From assembly GCA_947175495.1 (NCBI GenBank), contig CAMWNB010000007.1, positions 1 to 64,000 of the forward strand: DNA of 64,000 bases. Reading direction: 5' to 3'. The position numbers and the translations under genes are program-made. The stretch comes from an uncultured Porphyromonadaceae bacterium. Its GTDB lineage: Bacteria > Bacteroidota > Bacteroidia > Bacteroidales > Muribaculaceae. Position 1 is the stretch's first letter. The number at the start of each line of letters is the position of its first letter. This document shows positions 8,694 to 32,255 of the stretch, piece by piece. The notes beneath the pieces are model-generated. The model saw only the letters and a list, made by a program, of their open reading frames with translations, ran no database searches and was not told the DNA's origin.

Positions 8694-9878
8694 TTACATC
8701 TTCGGCGTGTCGCAGCGCCGTTTGCCGAAGAAGCGGTCGATGATGGCGGCGATGGCACCGTCGCCGGTGACGTTGCAGGCCGTGCCGAAACTGTCCATGG
8801 CTATGTAGAGCGCTATCATCATGGCCTGCATGTCGGCGTCGAAGTCCAGGATGGATGCCAGCAGTCCCAGCGAGGCCATGATGGCGCCACCGGGCACACC
8901 CGGCGCGGCGATGATGGTGATGCCGAGCATGGCTATGAAATGCATGAACATGACGGGCGGGCAGGCCTGGCCGTGCATCATCATCAGGGCCATTGCGCAG
9001 GCCACAATCTTCAGTGTGCTGCCGCTCATGTGGATGGTGGCGCACAGCGGCACGGTGAAGCCGGCCACGTCCTCCGACACGCCCATGCGCACCGTCTGGC
9101 GCAGCGTCACGGGGATGGTGGCGGCCGACGACTGCGTGCCCAGCGCCGTGAGGTAGGCCGGCAGCATCGTGCGCAGCATGCGCAGCGGGTTCTTGCCTGC
9201 TATGGCTCCGGCAACGGCGTACTGCACAAGCAGGATGAGAATGTGCATGGCGAAAATCACTCCTATGATGCCGGCGAAGGTGGCCAGCACCGGAGCCACA
9301 CGGCCCTCCACGGCCATGATGAGGAAGATGCACATGATGTAGGGCGGCAGCAGCGGCACCACGGCGCGGTCGATGGCCATGGCCACGATGGTGCGGAACT
9401 CGGAGAGCCCGCGGCGCAGGGCCGGCGCGTCGGCCGCGGCGCAGCCCAGTCCGAGCAGAAAGGCCAGGGCGAGCGAGGTGGTGACTCCCATGAGGCCGGG
9501 CACGTCGACTTCAAACCACGGCCGCACCGAGCGGACCTCAGCCTCGGCGGCTGTCGAGGCGAGCGACGGGTCGATGATCATGGGGAAGGTGGCGGCGCTT
9601 ATGCCATAGCTCATCAGGCCCGCCAGGAAGGTGGCCGCATAGGCAAGCAGAGCCGTGGCCACGAGCAGACGGCCCGCGCGGCGGCCTACATCGGCGATGG
9701 CCGGGGCCACGAATCCTATGATTATGAGAGGAATCAGGAAGCGCAGCAGCTGCCCCATGAGACTGTTGAACGTGGCGGCGGCGCCGGCGAGCCATGCGGG
9801 GGCCGCAAGTCCCAGGGCTATACCCGCGGCGATGGCGACGAGGATGCGCGCGGGCAGACTTTTCAGCAGATGTTTCAT
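8694..9878 (-). CDS. Dicarboxylate/amino acid:cation symporter
   Basis: DAACS-family carrier of the inner membrane, taking up C4-dicarboxylates, glutamate or serine with Na+ or H+. The signature TQSSAATIPVTL marks the first hairpin, HMSGSTLKIV follows it, and NVTGDGAIAAIIDRFFG is the conserved substrate/cation site near the C terminus. It has 394 residues and eight hydrophobic segments, usual for the family. Its start overlaps the upstream TPR gene by four bases, so the two are translationally coupled. Choosing between GltP-, SstT- and DctA-type substrates is not possible here. Confidence 0.92.
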   Translation of the reverse strand: MKHLLKSLPARILVAIAAGIALGLAAPAWLAGAAATFNSLMGQLLRFLIPLIIIGFVAPAIADVGRRAGRLLVATALLAYAATFLAGLMSYGISAATFPMIIDPSLASTAAEAEVRSVRPWFEVDVPGLMGVTTSLALAFLLGLGCAAADAPALRRGLSEFRTIVAMAIDRAVVPLLPPYIMCIFLIMAVEGRVAPVLATFAGIIGVIFAMHILILLVQYAVAGAIAGKNPLRMLRTMLPAYLTALGTQSSAATIPVTLRQTVRMGVSEDVAGFTVPLCATIHMSGSTLKIVACAMALMMMHGQACPPVMFMHFIAMLGITIIAAPGVPGGAIMASLGLLASILDFDADMQAMMIALYIAMDSFGTACNVTGDGAIAAIIDRFFGKRRCDTPKM

Positions 9879-25520: not shown

Positions 25521-27569
25521 TTATTTCACTTGCGCGCCGGGCGCTACGGCGTCGCTTACGGTGGTGAGTACCAGGCGGCCGTCCTTGTCCTCGGCCGAGA
25601 GCAGCATGCCCTGCGACTCTATGCCGCGCAGCTTGCGCGGGGGGAGGTTGGCGATGAACACCACCTGCTTGCCCACGAGCACGGACGGGTCGGGATAGCT
25701 CTTGGCGATGCCGCTGACGATGGTGCGCTTCTCCGGCGTGCCGTCGTCGATGAGGAAGCGCAGCAGCTTGTCGGCCTTGGGTACGCGCTCGCATTCCACC
25801 ACGGTGCCGACGCGCAGGTCGGAGCGGCAGAAGGTGTCGAAGTCCACGTCGGGCTGCTGCTCGGCGGGGCGCCATGCGGCCTCGAGGTTGGCCTTCTTGG
25901 TGTCGGCCAGGCGCTGCAGCTGCGCGGCCACGGCTTCGTCCTCGATTTTGTCGAAGAGCAGCTCGGGCTGCGCGATGGCTGTGCCGGCGTCCACGAGGTC
26001 CATGCGGCCGAGCATGTCCCACGAGATGTCCTTGACGCCCAGCATCTTCACCAGGCGCTTGCTCATGAAGGGCATGAACGGCTCGAAGGCGATGGCCAGG
26101 TTGGCGCACAGCTGGATGGCCGTGTACAGGATGGTGCCGGCGCGCTCCATGTCGGTCTTGGCCACCTTCCAGGGCTCGGTCTCCTGCAGGTAGCGGTTGC
26201 CCAGGCGGGCTATCTCCATGGCCTGCTTCAGAGCCTCGCGGAAGTGGAAGCCCTCGAGCGATGCGGTCAGCTCGGCCACGGCTGCACGCAGGTCGTCAGC
26301 CAGCTGCACGTCGGCGGGCTGCAGGGCCGCAGGCGTGGGCAGCGTGCCGCCGAAGAACTTGTGGGTCAGCACCGTCGCGCGGTTCACGAAGTTGCCGAGC
26401 ACGGCCACGAGCTCGTTGTTGTTGCGGGCCTGGAAGTCGGCCCAGGTGAAGTCGTTGTCCTTCGTCTCGGGAGCGTTGGCCGTCAGCACATAGCGCAGCA
26501 CGTCCTGCTTGCCGGGGAAGTCGCGCAGATACTCGTGCAGCCACACGGCCCAGTTGCGCGACGTGCTGATTTTGTCGCCTTCCAGGTTGAGGAACTCGTT
26601 GGAAGGCACGTTGTCGGGCAGCTGGTAGCCGTCGCCGTAGGCCAGAAGCATCGCCGGGAAGATGATGCAGTGGAACACGATGTTGTCCTTGCCAATGAAG
26701 TTGATGATGCGCGTCTCGGGGTCCTTCCACCACTTCTCCCACTGCTCGGGCAGCAGCTCCTTGGTGTTGGAGATGTAGCCGATGGGCGCGTCGAACCACA
26801 CATAGAGCACCTTGCCCTCGGCGCCCTCCACGGGCACGGGGATGCCCCAGTCGAGGTCGCGAGTCACGGCGCGGGGCTGCAGGCCCAGGTCGAGCCACGA
26901 CTTGCACTGGCCGTACACATTGGTGCGCCACTCCTTGTGGCCCTCCAGAATCCATTTCTGGAGCTGCGGCTGCCAGCGGTCGAGCGGCAGATACCAGTGG
27001 AAAGTCTCGCGCAGCACGGGCGTGTTGCCGGTCTCGGCGCAGCGCGGGTTGATAAGCTCCGTGGCGCTCAGCGACGAGCCGCATTTCTCGCACTGGTCGC
27101 CATAGGCGCCGGGCGCGTGGCACACGGGGCACTCGCCCACCACGTTGCGGTCGGTCACGAAGCGTCCCGCGCCCTCGTCGTAGAACTGCATCGACGCCTT
27201 CTCCACAAATCCGCCCTTGTCGTAGATGTGGCGGAAAAACTCCGAAGCTGTCTCGGCGTGCGTCTCCGACGTCGTGCGCGAATATATGTCGAACGAGATG
27301 CCCAGCTCCTCGAAAGAGTCCTTGATGAGCTTGTGGTAGCGGTCCACCACATCCTGCGGTGTGATGCCCTCCTTGCGTGCGCGTATGGTGATGGGCACGC
27401 CGTGCTCGTCGCTGCCGCCTATCATCAGCACGTCGCGGCCCTGCAGGCGCAGGTAGCGGGCGTAGATGTCGGCAGGCACATACACGCCTGCCAGGTGGCC
27501 TATGTGCACAGGTCCGTTGGCGTAGGGTAAAGCTGTGGTAATCAGCGTCCGTTTATATTTGTTTTCCAT
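25521..27569 (-). CDS. metG: Methionine-tRNA ligase
   Basis: Charges tRNA-Met and initiator tRNA. The class I signatures are HIGH (in [10 protein letters not shown]) and KISTS (in [10 protein letters not shown], the KMSKS equivalent). The zinc knuckle [18 protein letters not shown] matches the MetRS1 type. The last 110 residues form the OB-fold tRNA-binding domain ([20 protein letters not shown]), which dimerises the enzyme. 682 residues. I chose ATG 27569; a TTG at 27593 lies immediately beyond the -7 element and is unlikely. Confidence 0.97.
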
Positions 27570-27597
27570 TTCTGTTACGATATGATTTTTCAACTTG

Positions 27598-27629: not shown

Positions 27630-27678
27630 AACGCCCGAAAAGCGCCTTGAATCCCGGCACGGGCATCTGCTTGTTTTT

Positions 27679-27731
27679 TTGTTTCACCGTGTTTCACTGT
27701 TTCGGGGTGAAACAGTGAAACAAACGAAACA
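27679..27731 (+). repeat. Left arm of the 53-bp inverted repeat around the beta-lactamase gene
   Basis: This 53-base segment is a perfect reverse complement of 28735-28787. It contains its own 13-bp hairpin, GTTTCACTGTTTC / GAAACAGTGAAAC, with a GGGGT loop, and further GTTTCAC units. It lies in a divergent intergenic region, between the metG and beta-lactamase promoters, where a terminator is not needed. Confidence 0.95.
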
Positions 27732-27742
27732 GAATGCGTCGG

Positions 27743-27773
27743 TTTGTTTTGCGGAAGATAATTGGTAATTTTG
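27743..27773 (+). promoter_or_regulatory. Beta-lactamase promoter
   Basis: TTTG (27743-27746) and TAATTTTG (27766-27773) are spaced by 19 bases. It lies inside the inverted repeats, so the gene carries its own promoter within the framed segment. Confidence 0.85.
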
Positions 27774-27798
27774 CAAGAGTATTTAAAATGTGTTTTTT

Positions 27799-28713
27799 AT
27801 GTGGAAAAGGTTTTGGATTCTGGCGCTCGTGGCGGCGCTGGCGGGATGTGCGGCGCGGCAGGCCGGAAGCTGGGAAGCGCAGCGGCAGGCGCGTATCGGG
27901 GCGCTGTGCGATTCATTGCAGCGGATTGCCGACGGGTGTGACGGCGAAGTGGGCATCGCGGTGCTGACCGACTGCGGCGACACCGTCCTTGTCAACAACG
28001 AGACGAAGTATCCGCTGATGAGCGTGTTCAAACTGCACCAGGCCATGGCGCTGTGCAGCGATTTCGAGCGGCGGGGCCTGTCGGTCGACTCGGTGGTGCG
28101 TATCGCCCGCAGCGGGCTCAACCCCGACACATGGTCGCCGATGCTCAAGGACCACAGGGAGGACACGATTGACATGGCCGTGCGCGGGCTGATGCGCTAC
28201 GCCCTCATGCAGAGCGACAACAACGCGAGCAATTATATGTTCGAGCATCTGCAGCCTGTGGCGGCCGTCGACAGCTTCACGGCCACGATAGCGCCGCGAT
28301 GCAGCTTCTGCCTGCGCCACACGGAGGCCGACATGTGGAGCGACCACGCCCTGGCCTATGAAAACCGCACCTCGCCCTTGGGTGCGGCCATTGTGATGGA
28401 CCGTCTCTTCGCCGACAGCATCGCAGGCGCCGCCTTCATCCGCTCCACTCTGTCGGAGTGCCGCACGGGCGCCGACCGCATAGCGGCGCCGCTACTCGGC
28501 ATCGAGGGCGTGGAGGTGGCCCACAAGACAGGCTCCGGATTCCGCTCGCCCGACGGCACGCTGGCGGCGCACAACGACGTGGCCCGCGTCAGCCTGCCCG
28601 ACGGCCGCTGCTACACGCTGGCCGTGTTCGTAAAGGATTTCCACGGCTCCGAGAGCGAGGCGGCAGCAGTCATCGCCCGCGTCTCGGCCGTGGTTTACGC
28701 CTCGCTTGAATAG
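27799..28713 (+). CDS. Class A (A2-type) beta-lactamase, lipoprotein
   Basis: Serine beta-lactamase predicted to hydrolyse penicillins/cephalosporins in the periplasm. Catalytic motifs are S75-V-F-K78, S139-D-N141, E176 in HTEADM, and K243-T-G245. The spacing and the HTEADMWSDHALAYENRTSP loop resemble the Bacteroidales CfxA/CepA (A2) group. Residues 1-17 are a lipoprotein signal with lipobox LAGC, so it is probably membrane-anchored. ATG 27799 was chosen; GTG 27790 is in frame too. GC content matches the chromosome, arguing for long residence rather than recent arrival. The gene is framed by a 53-bp perfect inverted repeat. The true substrate range, or even a penicillin-binding role, cannot be settled from sequence. 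Confidence 0.93.
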   Translation: MWKRFWILALVAALAGCAARQAGSWEAQRQARIGALCDSLQRIADGCDGEVGIAVLTDCGDTVLVNNETKYPLMSVFKLHQAMALCSDFERRGLSVDSVVRIARSGLNPDTWSPMLKDHREDTIDMAVRGLMRYALMQSDNNASNYMFEHLQPVAAVDSFTATIAPRCSFCLRHTEADMWSDHALAYENRTSPLGAAIVMDRLFADSIAGAAFIRSTLSECRTGADRIAAPLLGIEGVEVAHKTGSGFRSPDGTLAAHNDVARVSLPDGRCYTLAVFVKDFHGSESEAAAVIARVSAVVYASLE

Positions 28714-28734
28714 CGCTTCAGCGGCGGGGGATGT

Positions 28735-28787
28735 TGTTTCGTTTGTTTCACTGTTTCACCCCGAAACAGTGAAACACGGTGAAACAA
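28735..28787 (-). repeat. Right arm of the 53-bp inverted repeat around the beta-lactamase gene
   Basis: Perfect reverse complement of 27679-27731, beginning 21 bases after the beta-lactamase stop. One further GTGAAACA unit follows outside the arm (28791-28798). Its internal 13-bp hairpin lies between two converging genes and could end transcription from both sides. Confidence 0.95.
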
Positions 28788-28808
28788 GCGTGAAACAGAC
28801 GGCGCTTG

Positions 28809-31800
28809 TCAGGAGACGGGGAGGACGAGGCGCAGCTCGGGATACCAGAGGTAGCCGCGGAGGACGGTGTGGCCCATGGCGCGGAGCATGGCCAGGTAGC
28901 CTTTCACCTGGGTGCGGTGCTCGTCGCGCGGCTCGGATGTGAACTTGTAGTCCACGATGTCGATGCTGCCGTCGGGGTAGAAGACGATGCGGTCGGGGCG
29001 GAAGCTCTCGCCGCGCTCGCCCACGTAGATGGTCTGCTCCGTGAGCACCTTGAGGCCGGGGCGGAACCATCGGCCGGCCAGGTCGCCGGCCTCGTCGAAA
29101 GCATGGCGCAGCGTGGCCGTGTATTCGGCCTGCACGGCCTCGTCGAGGCCTTCGCGCAGGGCGGTGGCCGCCACGGCGCGGGGCAGGTCGGCGGCGACGG
29201 TCATTCGGGCCAGGATGTTGTGCAGGTTGTTGCCGCGGGCTGCGGCGAGCGCGCGTGCATGCTCCTCGGGCGAGTGGGTGATGGCAGGCACGTCGTCAAG
29301 CTTTTGTTCCTCGTTGCCGATGCCCAGGTCGGGGTCGTGCGTGGTCAGGTCGTCGATGGTGGTGAGCTCGCGGGTGTCGTCGCGGAAGCACACGGTATAG
29401 CGCGGGGTGGGGCACACGTCGCCGTCGCTTTCCACGGGGCTTTCTTCCTCGGGCACGGTGGGCTCGCCGTAGACGAAAGTGCCTCCGGCGCCCTCGGCGC
29501 CTTCGGGCAGGGGCATGCCTTCGGGCGTGGCGTCGGAGGGATGGGCCGACATAAGTGCCGGCTGCAGCAGCTTGCCGACGCCCCGCGAGGGGTCGTAGTG
29601 CACGTGCAGCTCCCGCCGCGGGCGCGTGAAGGCCACATACGTCATGTTGAGGTTGTCGGCCACCTGGAGGGTCGCGTTTTCGGCATATTTCCCGGCAAAG
29701 GGGCTTCCGGCCGCCGTCCAGAGGCGGCTCAGCGGCAGCGCCAGCACCGGCGGCCGGTCGTCGGGGTCGCCGACGGCCACGGTGGCGGTCTCGAGCCACA
29801 CGTCCTCGCTGCGCGGCTCTATCTCCCAGTTGGCGAAGGGGATGTGCACGCAGTCCCATTCGAGGCCCTTGGCCTTGTGGACGGTCATCACGGTCACGGC
29901 GTCGAGTGTGGCGGCGGCGCCTACGGTCTGCTTGGCGCCGTTCTGCTCCCACCATGCCAGGAAGGCGTGGACCGACGGGTTGTAGGCCGCGCAGTAGTCG
30001 AGCACCACGTCCTGGAAGGCGGAGATGTAGGCGAACTCGCGGGCGCGCTGCTCCTCGGGCACGTTGCGGCTGATGATCACCTCCACGAGCGCCGGGAGGT
30101 TGGCGGCCTTGGCCGAGCGCACGCCTGTGGCCTCGGATCGCAGCTCCTCGCCGCCGCTGCCGTCCACGGCGCGGTCGAGCGCCTGCCCGGGCGTGCAGTC
30201 GCCGCGTCCCAGCTCATACTCGAAGCGCGACAGCATCAGCAGTATGTCGCCGTAGCTCGCGTAGCGCTGCTCGTCGGCGTCGGCGGGCGCGTCGGTGGTG
30301 TAGGAGCGGTCGACGAACTTGAGCACGCTCACAATCATGCGCACGGCGGCGCTGCTGTCGAGGCGCAGGCCTTCGTTGCTGAGCAGCGGGATTTCGGGAT
30401 GGCGGCGCATGAGGGCGTCGACCACCTCCCGGGCGTCGGCGCGCCGGCGCACCAGCACGGCGATGCGGCTCCATGCGTAGCCGGCCTCGTGCTCGCGCAC
30501 GACTTCCGCGGCCATGGCGTCGACGGATGCGTCGCGCAGCTCGGCCGACGACGGTCTGGCGTTCTCGTCGGCTGTCCCGGCAGTCAGCGAGGTCATGGGC
30601 CGCACGCACACATAGGCGCCCAGTCCGTCGAGCTTGCCGAAGAGGCTCTGGCGCACGTTTTCGTAGCCCTCCACGCCGTATTGAGCCGCAAGGCGGGTGA
30701 ACAGCGCGTTGTTGAAGCGCACCACGCCGTGGGCGCTGCGGTGGTTGGTGTTGTCGGCCGGGGCACTGCCGCGCTCGCGGTGCCGGCCGGGGAAGTCGTC
30801 GTTGGCCACGCGGTGGTGCAGCAGGCTGCTGTCGGAGTTGCGGAAGCGGTAGATGGCCTGTTTCTCGTCGCCGATGATGAGGCTGTCGGCCTCGTCGATG
30901 CTGTTGGCCACGAGCGGCCGCAGGTTGGCCCACTGCATGACGCTCGTGTCCTGGAATTCGTCGATGAGGAACGTGTGCAGCTCCATGCCTATGCGCTCGT
31001 AGATGAAGGGCACTTCGGCGCCGTTGATGATGCGGCGCAGCAGGTCGTTGGTGTCGCTCATCAGCACCAGGTTGTTCTCGCGGCGGAAGTCGGCCACATA
31101 TTTCCACGCCAGGCCCAGGAACTCCAGCGACGCGGTGGCGTCGGCGAGCATCTGCAGCACGGAGTCGCGCACGAAAGCCTCCTGCATGGCGCGTGCGGCG
31201 CCGCGCAGCAGGGCGGTCAGCGTGGAGGCGGGAAACACTGTCTGGCGCTTTATCTTGGGCAGCTTCGACACGGTGTACACGTCCTTGTCGTCGCCGCCCT
31301 CGCGCAGTATGGCCTTGAAGGTCTTGGCTTTTTCGGGGTCGCCGACGGCGAATTTCGATGCGTCGGGCATCACGCCCTTCGCCGCTGTCTCGAGCATGCC
31401 GACGAGGGCGCTCTTGCCGATGGCGCGTCCTCCCGGCTCGGCGTCGAGCCCCTCCAGGGCGGCGATGGCGGCCGCGCGCATGGCTTCGGCGATGTCGGCG
31501 CGGGCTGTGCGGATGGCCGCGCGGTAGCGGCGCAGGCGCGCCGGGTCGTCGAGATAGGCCTGCGTGGCGGCTGCGTAGGGCTTGAAATCCTCGCCGCACA
31601 TTCGGTGGACGTAGCGCACCACCTCGCCCGACAGGCGGCTCGAGCGGTCGAACACGTTGAAGCTCTGTCCGCGTGCGATGCGCTCGCGCATATAGCTTGC
31701 TATCCAGTTTTTTATCTGTGCCTCGCGGGGTGCCTCGCCGAAATTGAGCTCGTCGAACAGCATGCCGACGCCCGAGGCCACGGCGTAGCGGTCGTTGAGC

Positions 31801-32255
31801 TCCACCTCGTAGTCGCCCTGGTGGTCGACCTCGCGTGCAAACGTGCGCAGCACCATCTGGAAGAAGCTGTCGATGGTGCTGACGTTGAAGTGGCGGTAGT
31901 CGTGCAGCATGTCGCGCAGTGCGGCTCCGGCCTCTTCGGCCAGCTCGGCCTGCGTGCAGCCCATCAGGGCTGTGAGGCGGTCGGCATAGTCGGCCTCCGG
32001 GCCGTCCTTTGCCAGGGAGTTGAGTTTGCTGACGATGCGCGCCTTCATCTCCTCGGTGGCCTTGTTGGTGAAGGTGATGGCCAGGATGCCCCGGTGGCGG
32101 CATCGCTGCCTGTGGCCCGACGGCGAGTAGCGGGCCGAGTTGAGCGTGTAGCTGTCTTTTCCTTCGGCCTTTACGCCGAGGAGGGCCTTTATGTACTCGT
32201 AGGCAAGCGTGTAGGTTTTGCCCGAGCCTGCCGATGCCTTGTAGATTGTCAGCAC
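28809..32255 (-). CDS. AddA/RecB-like UvrD helicase-nuclease
   Basis: A 1148-residue fusion of a superfamily 1A helicase with a C-terminal PD-(D/E)XK nuclease, as in the AddA/RecB subunits that process double-strand breaks. The helicase has Walker A KASAGSGKTYTLAYEY, motif Ia ILAITFTNKAT, Walker B LIDEFQDTS and motif VI YVAFTRPRRELHVH. The nuclease core is FRPDRIVFYPDG and IDIVDYK near residue 1100. The start is GTG (32255), since no ATG precedes Walker A. It is the last gene of the queF-to-SUI1 run. The partner AddB-like nuclease is not in this window, though the two are often adjacent. Confidence 0.93.
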   Translation of the reverse strand: MLTIYKASAGSGKTYTLAYEYIKALLGVKAEGKDSYTLNSARYSPSGHRQRCRHRGILAITFTNKATEEMKARIVSKLNSLAKDGPEADYADRLTALMGCTQAELAEEAGAALRDMLHDYRHFNVSTIDSFFQMVLRTFAREVDHQGDYEVELNDRYAVASGVGMLFDELNFGEAPREAQIKNWIASYMRERIARGQSFNVFDRSSRLSGEVVRYVHRMCGEDFKPYAAATQAYLDDPARLRRYRAAIRTARADIAEAMRAAAIAALEGLDAEPGGRAIGKSALVGMLETAAKGVMPDASKFAVGDPEKAKTFKAILREGGDDKDVYTVSKLPKIKRQTVFPASTLTALLRGAARAMQEAFVRDSVLQMLADATASLEFLGLAWKYVADFRRENNLVLMSDTNDLLRRIINGAEVPFIYERIGMELHTFLIDEFQDTSVMQWANLRPLVANSIDEADSLIIGDEKQAIYRFRNSDSSLLHHRVANDDFPGRHRERGSAPADNTNHRSAHGVVRFNNALFTRLAAQYGVEGYENVRQSLFGKLDGLGAYVCVRPMTSLTAGTADENARPSSAELRDASVDAMAAEVVREHEAGYAWSRIAVLVRRRADAREVVDALMRRHPEIPLLSNEGLRLDSSAAVRMIVSVLKFVDRSYTTDAPADADEQRYASYGDILLMLSRFEYELGRGDCTPGQALDRAVDGSGGEELRSEATGVRSAKAANLPALVEVIISRNVPEEQRAREFAYISAFQDVVLDYCAAYNPSVHAFLAWWEQNGAKQTVGAAATLDAVTVMTVHKAKGLEWDCVHIPFANWEIEPRSEDVWLETATVAVGDPDDRPPVLALPLSRLWTAAGSPFAGKYAENATLQVADNLNMTYVAFTRPRRELHVHYDPSRGVGKLLQPALMSAHPSDATPEGMPLPEGAEGAGGTFVYGEPTVPEEESPVESDGDVCPTPRYTVCFRDDTRELTTIDDLTTHDPDLGIGNEEQKLDDVPAITHSPEEHARALAAARGNNLHNILARMTVAADLPRAVAATALREGLDEAVQAEYTATLRHAFDEAGDLAGRWFRPGLKVLTEQTIYVGERGESFRPDRIVFYPDGSIDIVDYKFTSEPRDEHRTQVKGYLAMLRAMGHTVLRGYLWYPELRLVLPVS

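Follow-up and report, generated by a model that had tools for sequence, protein, structure and literature searches.

CGTC-tagged REPs are palindromic repeats, apparently without a transposase of their own, and in the part of PMC3733652 available to us they are assigned to five phyla, the Bacteroidetes among them. Repeated stem-loop families have been collected under the term SLS; according to the opening part of PMC2267715 two thirds of these sequences are intergenic, the members of a family share a common predicted structure, and 67 of the 92 families recorded in 40 genomes were new. For genes of the Bacteroidales the available portion of PMC8748976 quotes a promoter consensus of -33 TTTG / -7 TANNTTTGY.

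When a resistance gene is framed by perfect inverted repeats, it is tempting to infer a mobile cassette or phase switch. A locus of this appearance lies in the stretch of 64,000 nucleotides analyzed here (the window) and contains the following features:

25521..27593, - strand, metG, left neighbour, divergent
27679..27731, + strand, left copy of a dispersed palindromic repeat of about 52 bp, with TGTTTC-type outer units, a 14-bp inner stem and a GGGGT loop
27743..27774, + strand, beta-lactamase promoter read by eye, with TTTG at 27743-27746, a 19-nt spacer and TAATTTTGC at 27766-27774
27799..28713, + strand, class A beta-lactamase ORF (ATG start), assigned by model scores
28735..28787, - strand, right copy of the palindromic repeat, inverted and 100% identical to the left copy
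28790-28796, extra GTGAAAC unit after the right arm
28809..32255, - strand, AddA/RecB-like helicase gene (addA), right neighbour, convergent

The two arms are exact reverse complements over 53 nt (100% complementary) with a spacing of 1003 nt, and they enclose one class A beta-lactamase gene (CfxA-like) together with its own promoter, just as the original prediction had described. The beta-lactamase was found to score highest with the CfxA and subclass A2 models, yet it remained under their curated cut-offs. Its closest plasmid homologues are CfxA (56% identity over 82%), and a homologue was present in 22 of 60 relatives with an identity of no more than 50%. The promoter fits the published Bacteroidales consensus with a spacer of 19 nt. 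The GC content is 66.0% for the gene and 62.4% for the window. Genes around the repeat copies were called with a home-made codon-score caller, which set the beta-lactamase start too far in (27949, compared to 27799 for the ATG ORF), and the names of neighbouring genes, except for those flanking the arms and those with a Pfam match, are our reading of the translations.

The arm sequence was found to be repeated throughout the genome. In the window the core 14-mer occurs four times with up to 2 mismatches, compared to a mean of 0.10 in 100 shuffles. In the whole assembly (2.34 Mb in 90 contigs) the exact 14-mer has 26 occurrences, against 0 for the reversed control. BLAST with the left arm gave 34 matches at 18 places, and a covariance model built from 17 copies added three places (C16, C35 and C63:54, the last one being a weak match of 28.8 bits). 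The original prediction had named a REP-type repeat family as one possible explanation, and had stated that an arm found at many intergenic sites would be a dispersed repeat; we found it at 21 dispersed places on 12 contigs. Seven of the 21 copies are the sole copy on their contig. All copies except one are located outside predicted genes, in sequence of which 90% was called coding. Their neighbours include DNA polymerase I, enolase and phosphoenolpyruvate carboxykinase-like genes (names read from translations). Many copies lie close behind stop codons, and three are located between divergent genes (the left arm on C7, C19:8833 and the copy on C29).

Each arm is itself an imperfect palindrome of about 52 bp. 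It folds into an inner stem of 14 bp, rather than the 13-bp hairpin first reported for it, with a 5-nt loop and an outer stem of 6 bp. The folding energy as DNA is -17.4 kcal/mol (z -5.2), and as RNA -24.8 and -25.4 kcal/mol for the two arms. We aligned the copies from 17 of the 21 places, leaving out C1:89792 (partial), C16, C35 and C63:54. Across these copies 95.6% of the cells in the named stem-loop structure were paired, compared to 41-54% in slid controls. Compensatory double changes were seen in none of 20 pairs over the 17 copies, with pairing not above that of shuffles, and no column outside the palindrome was conserved in the alignment. An Rfam identity of the arms was rejected; the only matches were two to mir-957, both below threshold and both at the arms.

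Outside this genome the palindrome was not recovered by the closer searches. BLAST (E <= 1e-5) found it in none of 60 relatives, 36 of the same genus and 24 of the same order, and the covariance model, run with stricter filters, found it in none of 48 other genomes of the genus. The near-exact core had no match in a species-genome collection that may omit records near the genome of the window. No viral contig matched either of two exact patterns of the palindrome, and the arm was without a match in the plasmid and phage collections. We conclude that the arms very probably belong to a dispersed repeat family. We consider it probable that they are two neighbouring copies of a young, lineage-specific and non-autonomous family of intergenic palindromic repeats, which behaves in a REP-like manner and has neither a GTAG or CGTC tag nor a linked transposase.

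One of the sites could be compared with a sister species. Flanking genes were used as bait in three relatives (G007, G008 and G064), and a single conserved adjacency was obtained, that of the C34 flanks in G007; for the remaining sites the flanking genes were either split between contigs or missed by the search in the three genomes. G007 retains the tRNA-Arg and the two genes that flank the C34 copy, but the copy itself is lacking. Counted from the stop codon up to the conserved sequence ahead of the tRNA-Arg, the spacer measures 202 bp with the palindrome in the genome of the window and 69 bp in G007. The tRNA-Arg was called in the genome of the window and is identical in the alignment of the two. 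The spacer is too diverged for exact junctions, and a gain in the genome of the window or a loss in G007 both fit.

The copies are clustered. Five neighbouring pairs lie within 1.2 kb of each other, a limit that was chosen after the places had been seen, while 0.21 pairs are expected from uniform and 0.32 from simulated intergenic placement. None of 20000 uniform and none of 5000 simulated intergenic trials reached five close pairs. Three of the five pairs enclose no gene. On contig C19 a second inverted pair (L148:7668-8885) frames a single AAA_25 ATPase gene, as at the beta-lactamase, and a third copy is found 2.8 kb further on, with two ORFs without a Pfam match enclosed.

Copies of the same cluster were also found to resemble each other. 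Their mean identity is 0.938 compared to 0.861 in general (p = 1e-4; 7 pairs from 5 clusters were compared, including the C63 pair, which is 6.8 kb apart). Leaving out the beta-lactamase pair weakens the effect (p = 0.0015); when only the other three aligned pairs within 1.2 kb are counted, p is 0.04, and the C20 pair (0.868) is barely above the average identity. Among the 136 pairs of the 17 aligned copies, full identity was seen only between the two arms at the beta-lactamase, and it stops where the element ends. Neighbouring copies therefore tend to be alike, with the arms at the beta-lactamase as the extreme case. Gene conversion, also named in the original prediction, or local duplication receives indirect support from the neighbour identity. 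Because the effect is weaker without the beta-lactamase pair, we lowered our estimate that local conversion or duplication causes the perfect match of the arms from modestly favoured to about an even chance. Short-range copying or gene conversion would account for the perfect match, so that a cassette is not needed.

We looked for traces of mobilisation at the copies. A consistent target-site duplication was absent from 16 copies; matches between flanks were at most 5 nt and offset from the ends. Old target-site duplications could have worn away. No transposase was present among the genes examined between close copies. A genome-wide search for transposases of the Y1 family found one Y1_Tnp (RAYT-like) gene (C24:16275-17072, L056), with GACGTCCACGTC repeats on both sides, and its contig carries no copy of the palindrome. 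An exact-pattern search located the GACGTCCACGTC (GACGTC) repeat at 15 genomic places. In the stretches around all 21 palindrome places it was seen only near two copies on C63. Here a GTAG-tagged GACGTC repeat and a palindrome form a composite of 168 bp, present as two inverted copies with 90% identity about 6.8 kb apart (L150):

2536-2702, composite copy on one side of a udk-dtd-apt-mnmG-like block (gene names by reading)
9498-9663, composite copy, inverted relative to the first, on the other side of the block

Since the composite is present twice, duplication has also affected larger units containing the palindrome. At its end, contig C63 repeats its initial 55 bases as reverse complement, which suggests that the assembly is broken by a longer dispersed repeat. 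Five Y1 loci from Filimonas and the Bacteroidetes MAG SZAS-24, four of them in Filimonas, were all without an iterated GTTTCA hairpin.

A history in keeping with these observations can be proposed. Both the origin and the spread of the family in this lineage would be recent, with single copies added one at a time. The spread would probably have proceeded via the hairpin, through single-stranded or template-switching intermediates, or through a transposase acting in trans; we lean slightly towards such hairpin-linked or trans mobilisation over other copying. Copies may persist between genes, where insertion is tolerated, and neighbouring copies could derive from short-range copying or be held alike by gene conversion. 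The beta-lactamase gene would then be found between two copies because each adjoining spacer received one, the repeats neither carrying nor switching the gene.

An alternative proposed in the original prediction is a MITE-like cassette, i.e., the palindromes would be the ends of a composite unit that brought the beta-lactamase as a passenger into the metG-addA spacer. A single gene lies between arms that match perfectly, and the inverted pair around the AAA_25 gene on C19 argues, if weakly, for the capture of genes. In relatives we did not find the metG|bla|addA junction; neither a beta-lactamase nor addA was located beside metG at any of 29 metG loci, taken from 38 relatives with a full metG match, about six of which end early upstream of metG. 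However, the region upstream of metG differs anyway among the three nearest species, with a kinase gene in G007, another gene in G064 and only about 230 bp in G008, which is too short for an ORF call, and the junction therefore says little. Framing of the kind seen here was not found at 24 beta-lactamase homologue loci in relatives (three end short at contig ends), where we looked for exact inverted repeats of at least 15 bases with arms more than 300 bp apart. The lack of framing at these loci and of a consistent target-site duplication counts against the gene as cargo, as do the close pairs that enclose no gene, and we regard the cassette as improbable.

A second alternative is that the palindrome acts as a transcription signal, either a bidirectional terminator or an mRNA 3'-end hairpin. 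An RNA hairpin of about -25 kcal/mol is stable, many copies follow shortly after stop codons, and the one terminator-like site called (27659-27674, + strand; 1.7 expected in shuffles) lies just left of the left arm with its tail touching the arm. The hairpins are, on the other hand, not followed by a T-tract (0-3 T in the next 8 nt in 16 copies), copies occur between divergent genes, and the stems show no compensatory changes. The absence of T-tracts agrees with the earlier view against shared terminators as the explanation of the arms, yet a terminator-like site does adjoin the left one. A function of this kind is unlikely to account for the family.

A third alternative places the family in a wider class of repeats, and comes from a search with a looser pattern. 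This search returned 65 stretches, 59 from Rhizobiales, 4 with the full TGTTTCACGTGAAACA and 2 from Bacteroidota. The Rhizobiales stretches (of L218-L282; Rhizobium paknamense, Azorhizobium oxalatiphilum and relatives) have a different long stem, their palindromes being of the type TAGAGCGTTTCAnTGTTTC...GAAACAnTGAAACGCTCTA. The rhizobial repeats have a common GTTTCAnTGTTTC stem, many with CCGTCCGG near one end, and we infer that they are CGTC REPs. The two Bacteroidota stretches, from Filimonas and SZAS-24, contain iterated GTTTCA/TGAAAC units. Counting by pattern gave 10 places for the genome of the window, 7 for Filimonas and 1 for SZAS-24; G007, G008 and G064 had none. In Filimonas (L284, L287, L289, L291, L293, L295 and L297) the palindromes of GTTTCA units have 2-nt spacers which vary by site. 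In SZAS-24 (L221:7180-7450) several adjacent palindromes within about 300 bp can be seen by eye, each made of another iterated unit, of the TTTTCCA, GTTTCA, TGTTCA and TGTTCC types. The family might accordingly be a local burst of a Bacteroidota class of iterated GTTTCA/TGAAAC palindromes with variable 2-3-nt spacers, whose arrays would be copied or inserted by a hexamer-recognising factor and could capture genes between neighbours, such as the beta-lactamase and the AAA_25 gene on C19. We consider this unlikely.

Sites for a chromosome-organising protein are less probable still. The parS site consists of two abutted half-sites, TGTTYCAC-GTGRAACA. The iterated TGTTTCAC units of the palindrome equal such a half-site, and we take TGTTTCAC/GTGAAACA to be the half-sites of the known ParB site. 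Four stretches of other genomes matched by the relaxed pattern (L220, L231, L270 and L275) contain the full TGTTTCACGTGAAACA, which we assume to be parS-like. In the repeat, however, the half-sites are not abutted, the best parS likeness within the repeats still has 2 mismatches (C35:77), and the copies share 53 bp, which is more than short binding sites need. A better parS candidate is the exact 16-bp palindrome TGTTCCACGTGGAACA, found outside the repeats and only twice in 217,685 bases of the genome (C63:6851 and C45:6224); these two are presumably the parS sites. One of them adjoins an mnmG-like gene.

A reading of the units as integron attC sites was also rejected, as the attC core site is GTTRRRY and GTTTCAC differs from it at position 4. 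Least probable of all, and hardly credible in our judgement, is the invertible segment of the original prediction, in which a site-specific recombinase would flip the 1-kb segment: the inverted repeats are perfect and the part of PMC8748976 available to us reports resistance genes of the human gut under invertible promoters only in Bacteroidales, but in the systems described there the repeats are placed around the promoter, with an invertase gene immediately upstream, whereas here promoter and gene are both between the arms and would flip together next to metG and addA, no invertase gene adjoins, and a third of the copies (7/21) are single on their contig.

Altogether, a mobile cassette or an invertible switch is not supported, and the preferred reading of the arms remains two neighbouring copies of a dispersed repeat. 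As the arms are a dispersed repeat with alike neighbours, they tell little about the mobility of the beta-lactamase gene, and a dispersed hairpin repeat is by itself no sign of a dedicated resistance-gene cassette. The family can serve as an example of a palindromic repeat of the orphan type, and it seems young enough that filled and empty sites can be compared.

The literature that we searched, mostly at the level of the beginnings of abstracts, held no recognisable description of this palindrome family, and several known systems share part of its features. The BrickBuilt MITEs of Porphyromonas gingivalis are, in the accessible text of PMC5771137, likewise non-coding dispersed repeats in Bacteroidales; the present palindrome differs in that no target-site duplication was seen and no parent transposase identified. 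Invertible promoters of Bacteroidales resemble the locus in that a resistance gene with a -33/-7 promoter has inverted repeats nearby, as far as the available part of PMC8748976 describes them. The arms studied here differ from these in that they enclose the gene as well, have no adjoining invertase gene and belong to a dispersed family. The atypical structures of Bacteroidetes Y1 genes (subclass 2.6) resemble the palindrome in having copies elsewhere in the genome, according to the portion of PMC6006769 at hand, but the present palindrome has no copy next to the Y1 gene.

In its behaviour the family resembles REP sequences and SLS. GTAG-tagged REPs and REPINs are described in the accessible part of PMC3116915 as short palindromes outside genes that occur paired or clustered, paired copies being more identical, and this is also seen here. 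A further likeness is the GACGTC repeat at the Y1 gene, which is GTAG-tagged on C63 beside two copies of the palindrome. The palindrome itself differs in lacking the GTAG tag, in being longer (52-53 bp), in its iterated GTTTCA units and in its position away from the Y1 gene. Membership of the GTAG REPs was rejected, because GTAG is absent from the hairpin foot of the 17 copies and the Y1 gene is flanked by the GACGTC repeat instead. With CGTC REPs the family shares palindromic repeats that apparently have no dedicated transposase, a feature taken from what is accessible of PMC3733652; CGTC was, however, not found at a fixed end of the palindromes, and membership was rejected here as well. By description it can be set beside SLS as a kind, both being repeated stem-loops that are mostly intergenic in the account given in the available part of PMC2267715. 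The family behaves like REP and SLS repeats but lacks the GTAG and CGTC REP features for which it was tested, and the resemblance is therefore one of broad kind only.
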